Shown: positions 5,910 to 11,900 of the stretch, one piece after another | Numbering within the stretch: the first letter of the stretch is position 1 | How the letters are laid out: each line of letters opens with the position of its first letter | From: Deltaproteobacteria bacterium | GTDB lineage: Bacteria > JAMCPX01 | Length of the DNA stretch: 64,000 nucleotides | Direction of reading: 5' to 3' | Assembly: GCA_023382265.1 (NCBI GenBank) | Contig: JAMCPX010000007.1 | Coordinates: forward strand, 1 to 64,000 | Made by a program: the position numbers and the translations under genes | The notes under the pieces: model-generated | What the model saw: only the letters and a program-made list of their open reading frames with translations | The model's database searches: none | Told to the model about the DNA's origin: nothing

Positions 5910-5972
5910 ATCACCGCAACTGCTTTCAATTACTTCTTCATCTGTCATCGCAAGCTGTGGTTGTTTGCGCAT
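5910..5972 (+). pseudogene. Relic copy of the cas4 5' region
   Basis: This 63-base stretch is a second copy of cas4 codons found intact at 6753-6815. The best part (5925-5972) matches in 46 of 48 positions, and the translations ITATAFNYFFICHRKLWLFAH and ITGTEFNYFFICHRKLWLFAH differ at only two of 21 residues. The copy has no start codon and runs into a stop at 5988-5990. The two copies are exactly 843 bases apart and bracket the DUF4258/DUF2283 pair, so an insertion or rearrangement separated cas5 from cas4 and left a partial duplication. Confidence 0.85.
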
Positions 5973-6079: not shown

Positions 6080-6340
6080 ATGAATATTAAGTTTACAAAA
6101 CACGCAAAAGAAAGAGCGATTCAAAGAGGAGCTACAAAGCAAGAAATTGAAAATGTTCTTTTAGCAGGTATTGAATCATTGGCAAAAGGAAATAAAAAAT
6201 CAAAAGATATGGTTTTTGAGTATAATAGAGAATGGTTGGGCAAAATTTATCCACAAAAGAAAATAAAAGTGATATATGTTAAAGAAAGAAATGATATTAT
6301 AATTATTACAGTAAAAGTATTTTATGGCGAATGGAGGTAG
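6080..6340 (+). CDS. DUF4258 protein, toxin-like small protein in the cas operon
   Basis: An 86-residue protein beginning IKFTKHAKERAIQRGATKQEIENVL and ending in a strand-rich part with YPQKKIKVIYVKERNDII. This is the DUF4258 pattern: an FTxHAxxRxxxRG start followed by a beta-sheet with a conserved TV motif. DUF4258 proteins are often paired with DUF2283 proteins, as here with a six-base gap, and the pairs behave genomically like toxin-antitoxin modules; a toxic activity has not been shown to my knowledge. The gene is visibly more AT-rich than cas5 and cas1, which fits recent arrival. It has only a weak ribosome-binding site. Confidence 0.8.
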   Translation: MNIKFTKHAKERAIQRGATKQEIENVLLAGIESLAKGNKKSKDMVFEYNREWLGKIYPQKKIKVIYVKERNDIIIITVKVFYGEWR

Positions 6341-6346
6341 AATAAT

Positions 6347-6556
6347 ATGAAAATTACTTATGACCCTAAATATGATTTGCTCTATTTAAAAATGGGTGAA
6401 GCTAAAAAGGTTTTATGTAAAGAAGTTAACGATGATATAACCGTAGATATGGATGCTAAGGGAAAATTGATAGGCATTGAAATCCTTTCAGCATCGCAAC
6501 ATGTTGATCTAAAAATGCTGTTGCCGGTAGAAATCAAGAAAACAGCAGTGAGATGA
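6347..6556 (+). CDS. DUF2283 protein, antitoxin-like partner
   Basis: A 69-residue protein starting KITYDPKYDLLYLKMGEAKK and containing DITVDMDAKGKLIGIEILSAS, the typical DUF2283 pattern (YDPexDxLYixl, then D-x-x-G-x-lvGIEil-a). It follows the DUF4258 gene by six bases with GGAGG seven to eleven bases before the ATG, so the two are co-translated. The pairing recurs widely and resembles type II toxin-antitoxin modules, with DUF2283 as the presumed neutralising partner. That role is inferred from context. It lies between the relic and the intact copy of cas4. Confidence 0.8.
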   Translation: MKITYDPKYDLLYLKMGEAKKVLCKEVNDDITVDMDAKGKLIGIEILSASQHVDLKMLLPVEIKKTAVR

Positions 6557-6719
6557 ATTATCAATGAAGAAGTTAAGATACAAAAAGAGAATGTGTCTTA
6601 ACAAAGAATGGAAGCTGTTCTTGTCATTGGGCAATGCCATGTTTAACCTAATGCCGCTGAACTGGTTAATCTTGCAGAATAATTTTTAGAAGGCATTAAA
6701 AGATTTATTGCTTAGTAAT

Positions 6720-7232
6720 ATGGATATTTCGATCCCTTTTTCGCACCTACAGATCACCGGTACGGAATTCAATTACTTCTTCATCTGTCATCGCAAGCTG
6801 TGGCTGTTTGCACATGATATACAGATGGAGCAGGAGTCCGACAATGTGTACCTTGGCAATTTGATCCATGAACATTCGTATCCAAGAGAGAAAAAAGAGA
6901 TTATGATAGACGGCGTAATCAGGATTGATTTCCTTGATGATGGAGCTGTGCATGAGGTGAAGAAATCTGATAAAATGGAAGAATCTCATATATGGCAGGT
7001 GTTATATTACATTTATTGTCTCAGGCAAAAGGGTGTGGATATACGGAATGGAGTTATCAACTATCCCAAACAGAAACGTACCACGTCGGTAGAACTGACA
7101 CCTGAAAATGAAATTGAAATTACTCATACGCTCGTAAAAATAAAAGAAGTAGAGTCAATGCCACAACCTCCGGAGATTTTAAATACAAGGCTCTGTAAAA
7201 AGTGCGGCTATGAAGATTTCTGCTATTCCTAA
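6720..7232 (+). CDS. cas4: Cas4 RecB-like exonuclease of CRISPR adaptation
   Basis: Cas4 trims prespacers and selects those with a correct PAM before Cas1-Cas2 integration. The protein has a Cys at residue 24 (FFICHRKLWLF) and a C-terminal CKKCGYEDFC cluster, the four cysteines expected for the [4Fe-4S] site. The RecB-type nuclease core is RIDFLDDGAVHEVKKSD, with the Asp and E-x-K metal-site residues present. ATG at 6720 is chosen; an upstream TTG at 6708 is in frame but adds nothing conserved. The length of 170 residues is normal, so the gene appears intact despite the rearrangement next to it. It is followed by cas1 after 18 bases. Confidence 0.92.
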   Translation: MDISIPFSHLQITGTEFNYFFICHRKLWLFAHDIQMEQESDNVYLGNLIHEHSYPREKKEIMIDGVIRIDFLDDGAVHEVKKSDKMEESHIWQVLYYIYCLRQKGVDIRNGVINYPKQKRTTSVELTPENEIEITHTLVKIKEVESMPQPPEILNTRLCKKCGYEDFCYS

Positions 7233-7250
7233 CCATTCCATGTCAAAAAA

Positions 7251-8243
7251 ATGAAGCGTAACTACTACATTACAAAAAACGGCCGTTTAAAACGTCAGGA
7301 TAACACAGTTTATCTTGAATTTGAGTCAGGCGAAAAAAAGGTAATTCCTATAGAGGATGTGGAAGGCATTTATCTGATGGGTGAGATGGATCTGAATACC
7401 AAGCTTCTCAATTTTCTGGCACAGCAAAAAATTCCAGTGCATGTATTCAATTACTACGGCTATTACTCAGGCTCATATTATCCGAGAGAGCATCTGAATT
7501 CCGGTTTTCTCCTTGTCAATCAGGTGGAAAGCTATAAGAATCAGGAAAAGCGGCTTGTCATCGCAAAGGAATTTATATTGAGCGCCTCGCACAATATTCT
7601 CAGAAATCTTAAATATTACCAGAGCCGCCAATCAGGTCTCGAGGGTTACATAACTGATATCGAAGCAAAGATCCCAGAATTAGAGAAAGCCCCTGGTATT
7701 CAGGAACTCATGGCATGGGAAGGCCATGTAAGGGAGCGCTATTATGATAGTTTCAATGTCATTCTTAATCTCAAGGAAGAATTTACCAAACGGACAAAGA
7801 GACCGCCCGACAACATGATGAATGCACTTATATCGTTCGGCAATTCCCTGTTATATGCAACAACACTTGGTGAGATCTATCATACCCAGCTTAATCCCAC
7901 TATAAGTTTTCTTCACGAGCCTGGCAACCGAAGATTTTCGCTCAGTCTGGACATATCCGAGGTATTCAAACCTATTATCGTTGATCATGTAATATTCAAA
8001 CTGATCAATACCGGCATGCTTGATAATACGGATTTCGATAAGGACATAAACTTCTGCTATCTCACCGAAAAGGGCAGGAAGATTTTTCTCAGGGAATATG
8101 ACGAGCGCCTCGACACGACAATCAAGCATAGAACACTGAAGCGGAATGTTTCTTACCGACACATGATTCGGCTGGAATGTTATAATCTTGAGAAATGTAT
8201 TGCGGGTATCGATGAATATAAAGGGTTTAGGGCATGGTGGTAA
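7251..8243 (+). CDS. cas1: Cas1 CRISPR integrase
   Basis: Cas1, with Cas2, inserts new spacers at the leader end of the array. The 330-residue protein starts with the N-terminal beta-domain typical of Cas1 (YYITKNGRLKRQDNTVYLE, then IPIEDVEGIYLMGEMDLN). The metal-binding active site is visible as the Glu in AWEGHVRERYYDSF (around residue 160), the His in LHEPGNRRFSLSLDISE, and the downstream Asp/Glu in that same stretch. It resembles Cas1 proteins of type I-A/I-B systems with a separate cas4. There is no sign of truncation. Confidence 0.95.
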   Translation: MKRNYYITKNGRLKRQDNTVYLEFESGEKKVIPIEDVEGIYLMGEMDLNTKLLNFLAQQKIPVHVFNYYGYYSGSYYPREHLNSGFLLVNQVESYKNQEKRLVIAKEFILSASHNILRNLKYYQSRQSGLEGYITDIEAKIPELEKAPGIQELMAWEGHVRERYYDSFNVILNLKEEFTKRTKRPPDNMMNALISFGNSLLYATTLGEIYHTQLNPTISFLHEPGNRRFSLSLDISEVFKPIIVDHVIFKLINTGMLDNTDFDKDINFCYLTEKGRKIFLREYDERLDTTIKHRTLKRNVSYRHMIRLECYNLEKCIAGIDEYKGFRAWW

Positions 8244-8294
8244 CGTTACTCGAAGACACTCTTAATGATTCCCGGGCATCAAAGGTTTAAGAAT

Positions 8295-8558
8295 ATGTAT
8301 GTGATTCTGGTATACGATGTAAAAGAAAATAGGGTACAGAAAGTACATAAGCTTTTGAAACGGTATCTGAACTGGGTGCAGAATTCAGTTTTTGAAGGGG
8401 AACTTACAGAAGGACAGTTCGAGGCGATGAAGATAGATGTTAAGGAACGTATGAAAACAGAAGAGGATTCTGTAATCATTTATAAGCTCGGCAGCTTGAA
8501 GTATACAGATCGTGAGATAGTTGGCGTTGAAAAGAATTTGACAGATAACCTATTGTAG
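8295..8558 (+). CDS. cas2: Cas2 adaptation protein
   Basis: A small ferredoxin-fold protein (87 residues from this start) beginning MYVILVYDVKENRVQKVHKLLKRY, the classic Cas2 start with the conserved Asp after the first strand. The middle segment LNWVQNSVFEGELTEGQ is also typical. Cas2 bridges two Cas1 dimers in the spacer integrase. The open frame extends ten codons further upstream to an ATG at 8265, but the conserved protein begins at 8295. The array leader starts immediately after the stop. Confidence 0.93.
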   Translation: MYVILVYDVKENRVQKVHKLLKRYLNWVQNSVFEGELTEGQFEAMKIDVKERMKTEEDSVIIYKLGSLKYTDREIVGVEKNLTDNLL

Positions 8559-8675: not shown

Positions 8676-10025
8676 CTTTTAATCGCACCAGTATGGAATT
8701 GAAACTATATGCTGTTAAATGTCCCCACCGAACCCCTAACTTTTAATCGCACCAGTATGGAATTGAAACTTCTTTGCAGTTATTTCGTCAATTTTACCTG
8801 TAATTCTTTTAATCGCACCAGTATGGAATTGAAACGTAGATAATAAACTACTGTGTCCTAAAAGTTCTTTCACTTTTAATCGCACCAGTATGGAATTGAA
8901 ACCAGACTCAACCGATCCTACAAAACGACCTTTATCCTCTTTTAATCGCACCAGTATGGAATTGAAACAGCATCAACGATATTCGGGACTCGTCATTCGT
9001 CGGTCCTTTTAATCGCACCAGTATGGAATTGAAACAATATCGTTGATGCTCGGCTCACCATCTTCTTTGCTCTTTTAATCGCACCAGTATGGAATTGAAA
9101 CTATAAAAGATGGCTTAGAAGAGGCTATAATTCTGTCTTTTAATCGCACCAGTATGGAATTGAAACCACTCAGTTGGGCGGCAAATTATGGGTATGTCGA
9201 TCTTTTAATCGCACCAGTATGGAATTGAAACGACATTTTTTCAGAAGAACCTGCTTCAGATGCACCCTTTTAATCGCACCAGTATGGAATTGAAACTTTG
9301 GTCCCATGCTACACCTCACCTATCAGGTTTTTCTTTTAATCGCACCAGTATGGAATTGAAACATATATATATATGAACTCGGAAACTTTTAAAAACATCT
9401 TTTAATCGCACCAGTATGGAATTGAAACGCGATAATAAATAATCGTTAATGTCGTCAAGTATTACTTTTAATCGCACCAGTATGGAATTGAAACCGCTCC
9501 CCGCCTGCGGCGTGCCAGGCGCGGACAACTTTTAATCGCACCAGTATGGAATTGAAACTTACCTGCCGCCCAGCTGAGTGCGGTATCGCCGTACCTTTTA
9601 ATCGCACCAGTATGGAATTGAAACTTATCATAAAAAAAGATGAATGCAATTGTGATATTAATCTTTTAATCGCACCAGTATGGAATTGAAACTAAATAGT
9701 ATAGCCTCCAGTATCATGTGGATCGTCTGACTTTTAATCGCACCAGTATGGAATTGAAACTGATCTCTCGTCTGGGCTTTGGGAGTTAGATAGCTCTTTT
9801 AATCGCACCAGTATGGAATTGAAACCTCGTATATTATCTGCTGATAGGTATTGGGCACGCTCCTTTTAATCGCACCAGTATGGAATTGAAACCCTGCAAT
9901 GCAGGACCGCCACGATAGCGCAATGAAGCTTTTAATCGCACCAGTATGGAATTGAAACAAAATCTCAGCAGGCTCGGAAGATTTAGACAAGTACACTTTT
10001 AATCGCACCAGTATGGAATTGAAAC
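8676..10025 (+). CRISPR. CRISPR array, 21 repeats of 30 bases and 20 spacers
   Basis: The 30-base repeat begins CTTTTAATCG and ends GAATTGAAAC; all 21 copies read as identical. Starts are at 8676, 8740, 8806, 8873, 8939, 9006, 9072, 9137, 9202, 9267, 9333, 9399, 9465, 9529, 9595, 9663, 9731, 9796, 9863, 9929 and 9996. The 20 spacers are 34-38 bases long. The predicted crRNA handle is ATTGAAAC. Identical repeats, with no decay even at the far end, suggest a working array; a single altered repeat (11871-11900) lies beyond an interrupting phage block. Several spacers translate into phage or mobile-element motifs (see findings). Confidence 0.99.
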
Positions 10026-10054
10026 TTATTTAATATTGAACCCGTCAAATTTAA

Positions 10055-10354
10055 CATCGCCTTTTTGACTTTATTATTATTTGTGTTGCAGGATTTATCA
10101 TACTTTGGTTTATAAGAGAATCTTTTAAATCCCTTAGGCAGATATTAATTGTTGTTGCCAAAATCATTCGCTATATAATAGATGTCTTTCCTCATTCTAC
10201 AAAGAAAATTAAAGAAAGTTTTGCCGAGACTATTACTGTTCAGAAGACAAAAGGCATAAGCATTGTAACCAAAATCGCGATTGGGGTTTTTATTGGCTTC
10301 TTTGGATTGCTTGCCATTTTTTTGATATATGCAAGTCTAACGCCTACACCCTAA
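10055..10354 (+). pseudogene. Membrane protein gene, 5' end missing
   Basis: An open frame of 99 codons without any ATG, GTG or TTG near its start runs from a stop at 10052-10054 to TAA at 10352-10354. It encodes a hydrophobic segment near the front (IIICVAGFIILWF), a charged middle, and a second hydrophobic segment close to the C-terminus (IAIGVFIGFFGLLAIFLIYAS). The missing start and the position 30 bases after the last array repeat indicate that its 5' part was lost when the array and phage DNA were joined. It converges on and overlaps the gpG gene by a few bases. I do not recognise the family. Confidence 0.5.
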
Positions 10355-10806
10355 TCCACTTTTAACGCCGCTTCAATAGCCTCTATAATCTCATTTATAT
10401 CGTCATTATCCAGGACGAGGAAGGGATGCGCGGGAATGCGGGCGCTCTGGTTTCTGCCGGCAAGTCCGCCGAATTGATGGATTGCGGCATAAGCTTTATT
10501 TGTTCCAACCGATGCGCTGTTGGCATCGAAATCGGTTGTCACAGATGAAGCAAGCGAGCCGGTGCGCTGGAGCATTTGCCCGGGCCAGTGCCCTTGTTTC
10601 TCACGCTGTTTTATTGTCGAGAGTGCAAGAGGCAGCCAGTGGTCATGGCGGCCTTCCTTCTCAAAGTTTTGTTCCACCGCATCAGCCATGATGCCGGCGA
10701 TTTTGCGCATGACCGGCGTCATATCCTTGCTGGTTGCCTCCAGCTGCTTGAGTAGCTTCACGACATCACGGTCGTCTATGTGCACGTATATGGTAGTTTC
10801 ACTCAT
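10351..10806 (-). CDS. Phage virion morphogenesis protein, Mu gpG-like
   Basis: A 151-residue protein with the layout of the phage virion morphogenesis (gpG / tail completion S) family. It has a short N-terminal helix pair, then QNFEKEGRHDHWLPLALSTI and QREKQGHWPGQMLQRTGSL, then AYAAIHQFGG and a late RIPAHPFLVLD segment. These conserved blocks (F-x-x-E-G, W-x-x-L-x-x-x-T, I-L-x-x-T-G-x-L, A-x-I-H-Q-F-G-G, I-P-A-R-P-F-L) are all present, so the reading frame looks intact. In Mu-like phages this gene follows gpF, as here. No other structural genes follow, so it cannot form particles alone. Confidence 0.85.
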   Translation of the reverse strand: MSETTIYVHIDDRDVVKLLKQLEATSKDMTPVMRKIAGIMADAVEQNFEKEGRHDHWLPLALSTIKQREKQGHWPGQMLQRTGSLASSVTTDFDANSASVGTNKAYAAIHQFGGLAGRNQSARIPAHPFLVLDNDDINEIIEAIEAALKVD

Positions 10807-10917
10807 TTTGACATAACCTTTTTTTGGTGTATATATTATAATAATTATCAGGAATCATCGATACTGCCGCTTGCGGCGGTGCAACCTTATCCGGGGCTTT
10901 GGTCGGTGGTTCCTTTT

Positions 10918-11430
10918 TTATTTTTTTATACTCTTTGGAAACAACAATGTCCCAGTGCGCTGTTTGTTCAGGTAATCCAGATTCCCGGGCTGAAAAGTAG
11001 TTGTTCCCTGCCATGTACCATTAATATTATCAAAGACTGCATATCCGCCGATCTTCCCGCTGGCGTCTTTATATATGCCGATATATCGTCGGCACAGCCG
11101 CCATTTACCGTCTTGCGTTTGTACAAAGGTCTCCCAGATTTCAGAAGGATGTTTTATCGTATCAGCAAGCATAGGGAGGTAAATCTCCCGGTCGGCCTGA
11201 AAGACTTTATAATCTTTATATTGATCCTGGACCGGCTTACTTTTGTCTCTTGTAAAAAGAGCATCAGAAACCACAAGTGGAACGTTTGCATCGTCCGTAA
11301 AAACCACCGGTGGGGCACCTACTTTTGTTCCAAAAATATTCAGAAATTTATCGATGTACTGTATAGGCGTATCGTTACTCTGTTGATGAGCAGGTTGTAT
11401 GAGGGCCGTTGTAAGCGGCGCGGCATACAT
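10918..11430 (-). CDS. PBECR2-like phage nuclease-domain protein
   Basis: A 170-residue protein matching the phage Barnase-EndoU-ColicinE5/D-RelE-like nuclease group (PBECR2 as I remember it): FLNIFGTKVGAPPVVFTDD near residue 30, then PLVVSDALF, LADTIKHPSEIW, KWRLCRRYIGIY and a C-terminal TWQGTTTFQPG with YLNKQRTGTLLF. In Mu-like phages this domain is usually fused to the C-terminus of gpF or lies next to it. Here it is separate, five bases after the gpF stop. The family is predicted to be RNA-cleaving and may act during or after DNA ejection; that function is prediction. Confidence 0.7.
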   Translation of the reverse strand: MYAAPLTTALIQPAHQQSNDTPIQYIDKFLNIFGTKVGAPPVVFTDDANVPLVVSDALFTRDKSKPVQDQYKDYKVFQADREIYLPMLADTIKHPSEIWETFVQTQDGKWRLCRRYIGIYKDASGKIGGYAVFDNINGTWQGTTTFQPGNLDYLNKQRTGTLLFPKSIKK

Positions 11431-11434
11431 ATTA

Positions 11435-11870
11435 CTACAGGGGATCGTCGAGGGGAGTATATATGCCGGTTGATTTGTATGGAGGTGGTGTTGGTTTGAG
11501 CGTAAAAGGCGCCATGTCGTCGCGACCAGGGCAGTAGCTCCAGCCTTTGTCCGGAGCGATATCCATACCGGTGACCGGGTCGTGAAATGTTGTCACCGGA
11601 ACTTTCTCATTCGAGCCTTTGCTGAGCGGCTCATAAGTCGTACTCATATTCCCCGCCGACGATTCCACCTTTGCACCGCTACGTTTCAGGGCGCTCTCGC
11701 TCAGGGCTGCCGTACGGCAACGGCAATTAAATCCGTTCGGGGGAAAGTGGGAGCGCCAGAATGGATCATCATACCGAAACACTATGCCGTTAAGTGCCGC
11801 GTGCGTGGGACGTGTCTTTGCATCCATAACCGCGACATACTCCCAGTATGGACGATCTGCCGCCATATCA
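11435..11870 (-). pseudogene. Mu gpF-like phage head protein, N-terminus lost
   Basis: The frame encodes the conserved C-terminal part of the gpF head morphogenesis family: RPYWEYVAVMDAKTRPTHAAL, then DDPFWRSHFPPNGFNCRCR. The usual N-terminal two thirds (over 200 residues) are missing. Upstream, the frame runs directly into the reverse complement of a CRISPR repeat (11871-11900) and opens formally at 11926, giving a meaningless hybrid start. The break is at the exact repeat edge, so the gene was cut by the event that joined phage DNA to the array. Confidence 0.85.
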
Positions 11871-11900
11871 CTTTTAATCTCACCAGTATGGAATTGAAAC
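11871..11900 (+). repeat. Detached CRISPR repeat, one mismatch
   Basis: This 30-base unit matches the array repeat at 29 of 30 positions (CTTTTAATCT instead of CTTTTAATCG at its start) and has the same orientation. It lies 1845 bases beyond repeat 21. Terminal repeats are often slightly degenerate, so this is probably the original last repeat of the array. Because phage DNA, not a repeat, lies on its left, the sequence before it cannot be processed into a crRNA with a normal 5' handle. Confidence 0.95.

Follow-up and report, generated by a model that had tools for sequence, protein, structure and literature searches.

A fragment of a Mu-like phage lies within the CRISPR array of the window (the whole stretch of 64,000 nucleotides analysed here, located on contig 7 of a 2.63-Mb draft genome of 73 contigs), where 1845 bp separate the end of repeat R21 from the terminal repeat R22. 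A sequence-only reading of the same DNA had reported this interruption and had attributed it to recombination of a gpF-targeting spacer with its own protospacer. The observation is confirmed, the repeat coordinates and spacings included, while the recombination interpretation is plausible but unproven. The phage origin of the insert may be taken as secure.

The array consists of 21 identical 30-nt repeats (R1–R21) with 20 spacers of 34–38 nt, and R22, which differs from these repeats by the single substitution G10T, looks like the original terminal repeat of the array. No other copy of the repeat and no second array were found elsewhere in the same genome. The array is preceded by a type I cas operon encoding Cas3, a Cas8a-like protein, Cas7, Cas4, Cas1 of the I-B type and Cas2, the adaptation genes of which appear intact (Table 1). 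Cas3 (195–2654) carries its helicase part at the N-terminus and the HD nuclease domain at the C-terminus, and its gene precedes cas8, unlike the ORF in the cas3 position of locus L041, which is placed after cas5. The operon also contains, immediately 5' of cas4, a toxin–antitoxin-like pair formed by a DUF4258 gene (6080–6340) and a DUF2283 gene (6347–6556); the pair is bracketed by a 63-bp duplication of the 5' end of cas4 (5910–5972 and 6753–6815, 89% identical), as if it had been inserted at this gene.

Table 1. Features of the interrupted array and of the phage insert (positions in the window)
Feature	Position	Strand	Basis
cas4, cas1 and cas2 adaptation genes, apparently intact	6708..8558	+	profile matches
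CRISPR array, R1–R21 and spacers 1–20	8676..10025	+	repeat and spacer coordinates
Spacer 19, matching gp36 of the Mu-like phage group of the insert	9893..9928	+	spacer alignment
Candidate ordinary 35-nt spacer S21 (alternative: phage DNA)	10026..10060	+	length, CTTTT following, stop in the phage-gene frame
CTTTT, identical to the start of the repeat (5 bases); candidate for the left joint, through microhomology or a partly duplicated repeat	10061..10065	+	
Membrane-protein gene, 5'-truncated, convergent with gpG	10066..10354	+	reading frame; unrelated gene at the matching position in locus L028
gpG (Phage_tail_S, virion morphogenesis), intact ORF	10351..10806	-	Pfam, alignment to the prophage of a relative
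PBECR2 domain, separated from gpF by a frameshift	10918..11430	-	Pfam, comparison with fused homologues
Partial gpF (C-terminal portion), truncated at the edge of the repeat	11435..11869	-	Pfam, alignment
CCG, candidate PAM	11830..11832	+	sequence
38-nt gpF stretch, candidate former spacer S22 or protospacer	11833..11870	+	spacer length, CCG
R22, terminal repeat, single substitution G10T	11871..11900	+	repeat comparison

The Pfam profiles matched in the insert are Phage_tail_S/gpG (1e-30), PBECR2 (2e-25) and Phage_Mu_F (4e-18), the latter only in its C-terminal part (profile positions 59–111). The same genes occur in the same order in a prophage on contig 81 of G008, a genome from another genus of the same family; this prophage also possesses portal, terminase, gp36 and contractile tail genes, and its gpG is 86% identical to that of the window at the DNA level. 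The gene identities read from the letters alone (truncated gpF, PBECR2 and gpG) are borne out. The alignment of gpF to the G008 prophage ends one base short of R22 and the gpF coding sequence reaches the last base of the insert, in agreement with the earlier claim that gpF stops at the repeat edge. On the left side, the truncated membrane-protein gene, for which no homologue was found, terminates at a position that in the G008 prophage marks the end of an unrelated gene. The gene content of the insert is limited to gpG, PBECR2, the partial gpF and the partial membrane-protein gene; being truncated within genes at both ends and devoid of integrase and transposase, the insert represents an internal phage fragment. 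With no defined ends in addition, it differs from an integrated prophage or a transposable element.

In the G008 prophage gpF and PBECR2 form a single 448-aa ORF, and they are fused in one ORF in the 6 relatives that have PBECR2, whereas the frame in the window is broken by about one base. This difference suggests that the insert is a decaying chromosomal remnant and not part of a live phage, with a naturally split gene as the possible alternative. As seen in locus L028 (4349–5695) and in several IMG/VR contigs, the fusion places a nuclease-like toxin domain at the C-terminal end of a phage head protein.

A resident Mu-like prophage, for which a search of the same genome had been advised together with the initial interpretation, was rejected as the donor, since neither a second copy of the insert nor a second gpF was found there (the gpF search was calibrated). 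The Mu portal family also gave no match in the genome, a result of little weight as control genomes were equally blank, and the parent phage had no match in IMG/VR or in phage records. Two further candidates were discarded: a phage-borne solitary repeat acting as an integration site, because the repeat is absent from viral contigs and from L028, and an element with shared terminal repeats, because the ends of the insert have only TGA in common.

Repeat-rich CRISPR arrays are known to give chimeric contigs in short-read assembly (PMC6617893), and a chimera formed through spacer–protospacer identity in a mixed population would yield joints at repeat edges. Contig ends in the draft, however, share exact 127-base overlaps, the signature of a de Bruijn graph with k = 127, and a shared spacer (38 bases) or repeat plus spacer (68 bases) is shorter than this inferred k. 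The break in the gpF–PBECR2 frame, pointing to a dead remnant, also speaks against such an artefact. We therefore regard a chimera as very improbable and the joints as probably real, although errors inherited from a smaller k are possible.

The host appears to have met the phage group in question before. Spacer 19 aligns over 36 nt with gp36 of the G008 prophage and shows 5 mismatches, each of which falls on a third codon position (PAMQDRHDSAMK), which indicates that it derives from the phage group of the insert and that the host sampled this group. None of the 20 array spacers matches the insert itself. Matches of spacer 13 to several phages at the protein level were dismissed as low-complexity arginine runs.

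At the right joint, phage homology runs to within one base of R22, so that the joint marks the outer limit of a stretch as long as a spacer, which continues into phage DNA. The triplet CCG is indeed present one spacer length (38 nt) before R22, as had been pointed out. Its value as a PAM, which had been set at CCG from spacers 5 and 6, requires some revision. These two spacers do share 15 perfect overlapping bases and imply CCG for each. Spacers 8 (9167–9201) and 14 (9559–9594), which lie on opposite strands, overlap with 18/22 identical positions and apparently derive from two related phages, imply CCG and CCA, and in the G008 prophage CCT precedes the sequence matched by spacer 19. Though read from diverged homologues, these triplets indicate that the PAM may be CCN and not strictly CCG; CCN with G favoured is probably the better description. 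A null obtained by sliding within the insert, with the motif accepted at a distance from the edge equal to one of the five permitted spacer lengths, gives a chance of 0.11 for CCG and 0.25 for CCN. The former value is somewhat above the 8 percent estimated before, and the PAM evidence is, as then judged, suggestive only. Because just 2/20 spacers of the array are 38 nt long, the likelihood ratio in favour of a former gpF spacer is only about 4 (0.10 vs 0.0225), and falls further under a CCN PAM.

The left joint can be read in more than one way. It had been placed at 10025/10026 and described as looking illegitimate, but it need not lie there and may instead be a 5-bp microhomology, CTTTT, within a repeat. 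A stretch of spacer length (35 nt) followed by CTTTT has a chance of 0.02–0.03, and the frame of the membrane-protein gene, which has no start codon, opens at 10056, directly after a stop at 10053–10055. Both features favour assignment of 10026–10060 to S21, in which case the phage DNA may begin at 10066. The stop codon and the otherwise fortuitous CTTTT speak against the idea that S21 (from 10026 onward) and S22 were both phage-derived, with the array DNA between these spacers exchanged for the phage DNA lying between their protospacers. Such an exchange would produce exact repeat edges on both sides with no illegitimate step, and frame 0 is open from 10026 and would be connected to the membrane-protein gene by shifting one base in a T-run; nevertheless, the searches yielded no phage carrying this left sequence, and we consider the exchange distinctly unlikely.

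If the insert extends over 10066–11870, CTTTT flanks it on both sides and its ends read TG...CA, as would be expected of a transposition-like insertion with the 5-bp target duplication that Mu makes. Both ends are nonetheless inside genes and share no end sequence beyond TGA, the gpF coding sequence continues to the last base and a transposase is lacking, which makes this the least probable of the explanations considered. The flanking CTTTT and the truncation within genes at both ends would equally result from plain illegitimate insertion, that is, from the capture of a phage fragment by double-strand break repair or replication slippage, with a 5-bp duplication, at a spacer/repeat boundary hit by chance. 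Falling within one base of the repeat edge would be a coincidence of roughly 1 in 20, and Ku was not detected in the genome, which renders classical end joining less likely. We judge this explanation rather unlikely, but it keeps an appreciable part of the probability.

The position of the right joint invites yet another explanation, since the 5' edge of the repeat is the place of the first Cas1–Cas2 attack. A long phage fragment could have been joined by a 3' end to the 5' edge of R22 in a first-site reaction on the wrong repeat, with subsequent repair copying only the 5 repeat bases CTTTT; S21 followed by CTTTT would then represent a partial repeat duplication. Prespacers naturally come from phage DNA, cas4–cas1–cas2 look intact and no lost repeat or spacer is required. 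On the other hand, integration is normally a leader-end event involving 34–38 nt, and CCG at 38 nt would have to be accidental. We know of no kilobase-sized product of Cas1–Cas2 integration. The arrangement also departs from a canonical spacer insertion in the size of the insert (1.8 kb), in having a canonical R21 but a variant R22, and in the repeat copy of at most 5 bases. We regard an aberrant event of this kind as unlikely, more so than plain illegitimate insertion.

Our tentative preference, held at somewhat less than an even chance, is that a gpF spacer recombined with its protospacer and that a microhomology joint at CTTTT removed the upstream repeat. The ancestral array would have ended in R21, S21 (35 nt), a repeat, S22 (38 nt, from gpF of a Mu-like phage) and R22. 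Recombination between S22 and its own protospacer in the phage DNA would have brought gpF and the neighbouring phage DNA, the CCG PAM included, up to R22, while the other side would have been joined at the 5-base CTTTT that starts the repeat upstream of S22. The CTTTT joint could have arisen in a single event resembling homology-facilitated illegitimate recombination (HFIR), in which one homologous anchor is combined with a joint at a few bases (PMC6382021), or in a later deletion of the integrated phage following a single crossover. The repeat required for the S22 crRNA would thereby have been lost along with most of the phage, including the target gene of spacer 19. Such a product may have been selected because both the source of the guide and the protospacer of spacer 19 were removed; with these gone, the remnant would not be targeted by the array and would now decay.

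The phage fragment, its right edge to within one base, a further spacer against the same phage group, the intact-looking adaptation genes and the broken gpF–PBECR2 frame are observed; we infer that S22 and a repeat before it once existed, that they took part in recombination, and in what order the steps followed. The points counted in favour of spacer recombination are the joint within one base of R22, CCG exactly 38 nt upstream, the origin of spacer 19 from the same phage group, the failure to find a second insert or gpF in the genome or an array spacer matching the insert, the low chance of S21 followed by CTTTT, the limit of the membrane-protein frame, the failure to detect Ku and the presence of a ComEC homologue. 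Against it, 38 bp is a short anchor for recombination of the RecA type, the model requires a lost repeat and a lost spacer, neither of which is seen, and it leaves without explanation a 10-mer, CCAGTATGGA, common to the end of the gpF fragment (11844–11853) and the repeat (11882–11891), the chance of which is about 4e-4 per 38-bp stretch. The comparison with related arrays that had also been proposed revealed no intact gpF spacer (11833–11870) in any array or strain; the relatives examined, none of the same species, do not possess this repeat, and the only array found was a distant one in L041. The original proposal, in which loss of the upstream repeat accounted for survival, agrees with all that was found and is strengthened by the internal nature of the fragment, the spacer 19 match and the low probability of a chimera, but stays unproven given the PAM ratio and the near-equal rivals. 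A Cas1–Cas2 event or plain illegitimate insertion fits almost as well. Spacer recombination and the Cas1–Cas2 model both account for the exact right edge; the former relies on a documented process and explains CCG, while the latter needs no lost parts.

PMC8616872 cites two reports of recombination between spacers and phages (Watson et al., 2018; Varble et al., 2019). In the staphylococcal case of Varble et al. (2019), as described there, phage DNA was likewise joined to the array inside the matching spacer, and this reportedly favours the spread of the CRISPR locus through transducing particles; the window, in contrast, would present a remnant residing in the chromosome, within a type I array, for which a single joint through a spacer is proposed. 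In Streptococcus pyogenes, prophages integrated into CRISPR loci (Varble et al., 2021, by its title in the references of PMC10434264) similarly place phage DNA within such a locus. Entry of phage DNA into CRISPR loci, including entry through spacers, has already been described, and the window offers a natural variant of it. The streptococcal integrations are reportedly site-specific and involve whole prophages, unlike the internal fragment found here, which has no integrase or att sites. Insertion sequences also interrupt CRISPR-Cas loci with foreign DNA (PMC10359306), but our insert contains no transposase and no inverted repeats. HFIR, known from natural transformation of S. pneumoniae, A. 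baylyi and P. stutzeri, resembles the favoured model in its single homologous anchor and microhomology joint (PMC6382021); our literature search found no description of it for phage DNA in CRISPR arrays.

If Cas1–Cas2 did join one end of a kilobase phage fragment to the edge of the trailer-end repeat, with repair closing the other side, adaptation would on rare occasions capture whole phage genes and could thus misfire at the kilobase scale. If spacer recombination is the true explanation, the array would provide a natural type I example of phage DNA entering the chromosome through the immune memory of the host, at the price of losing the offending guide.
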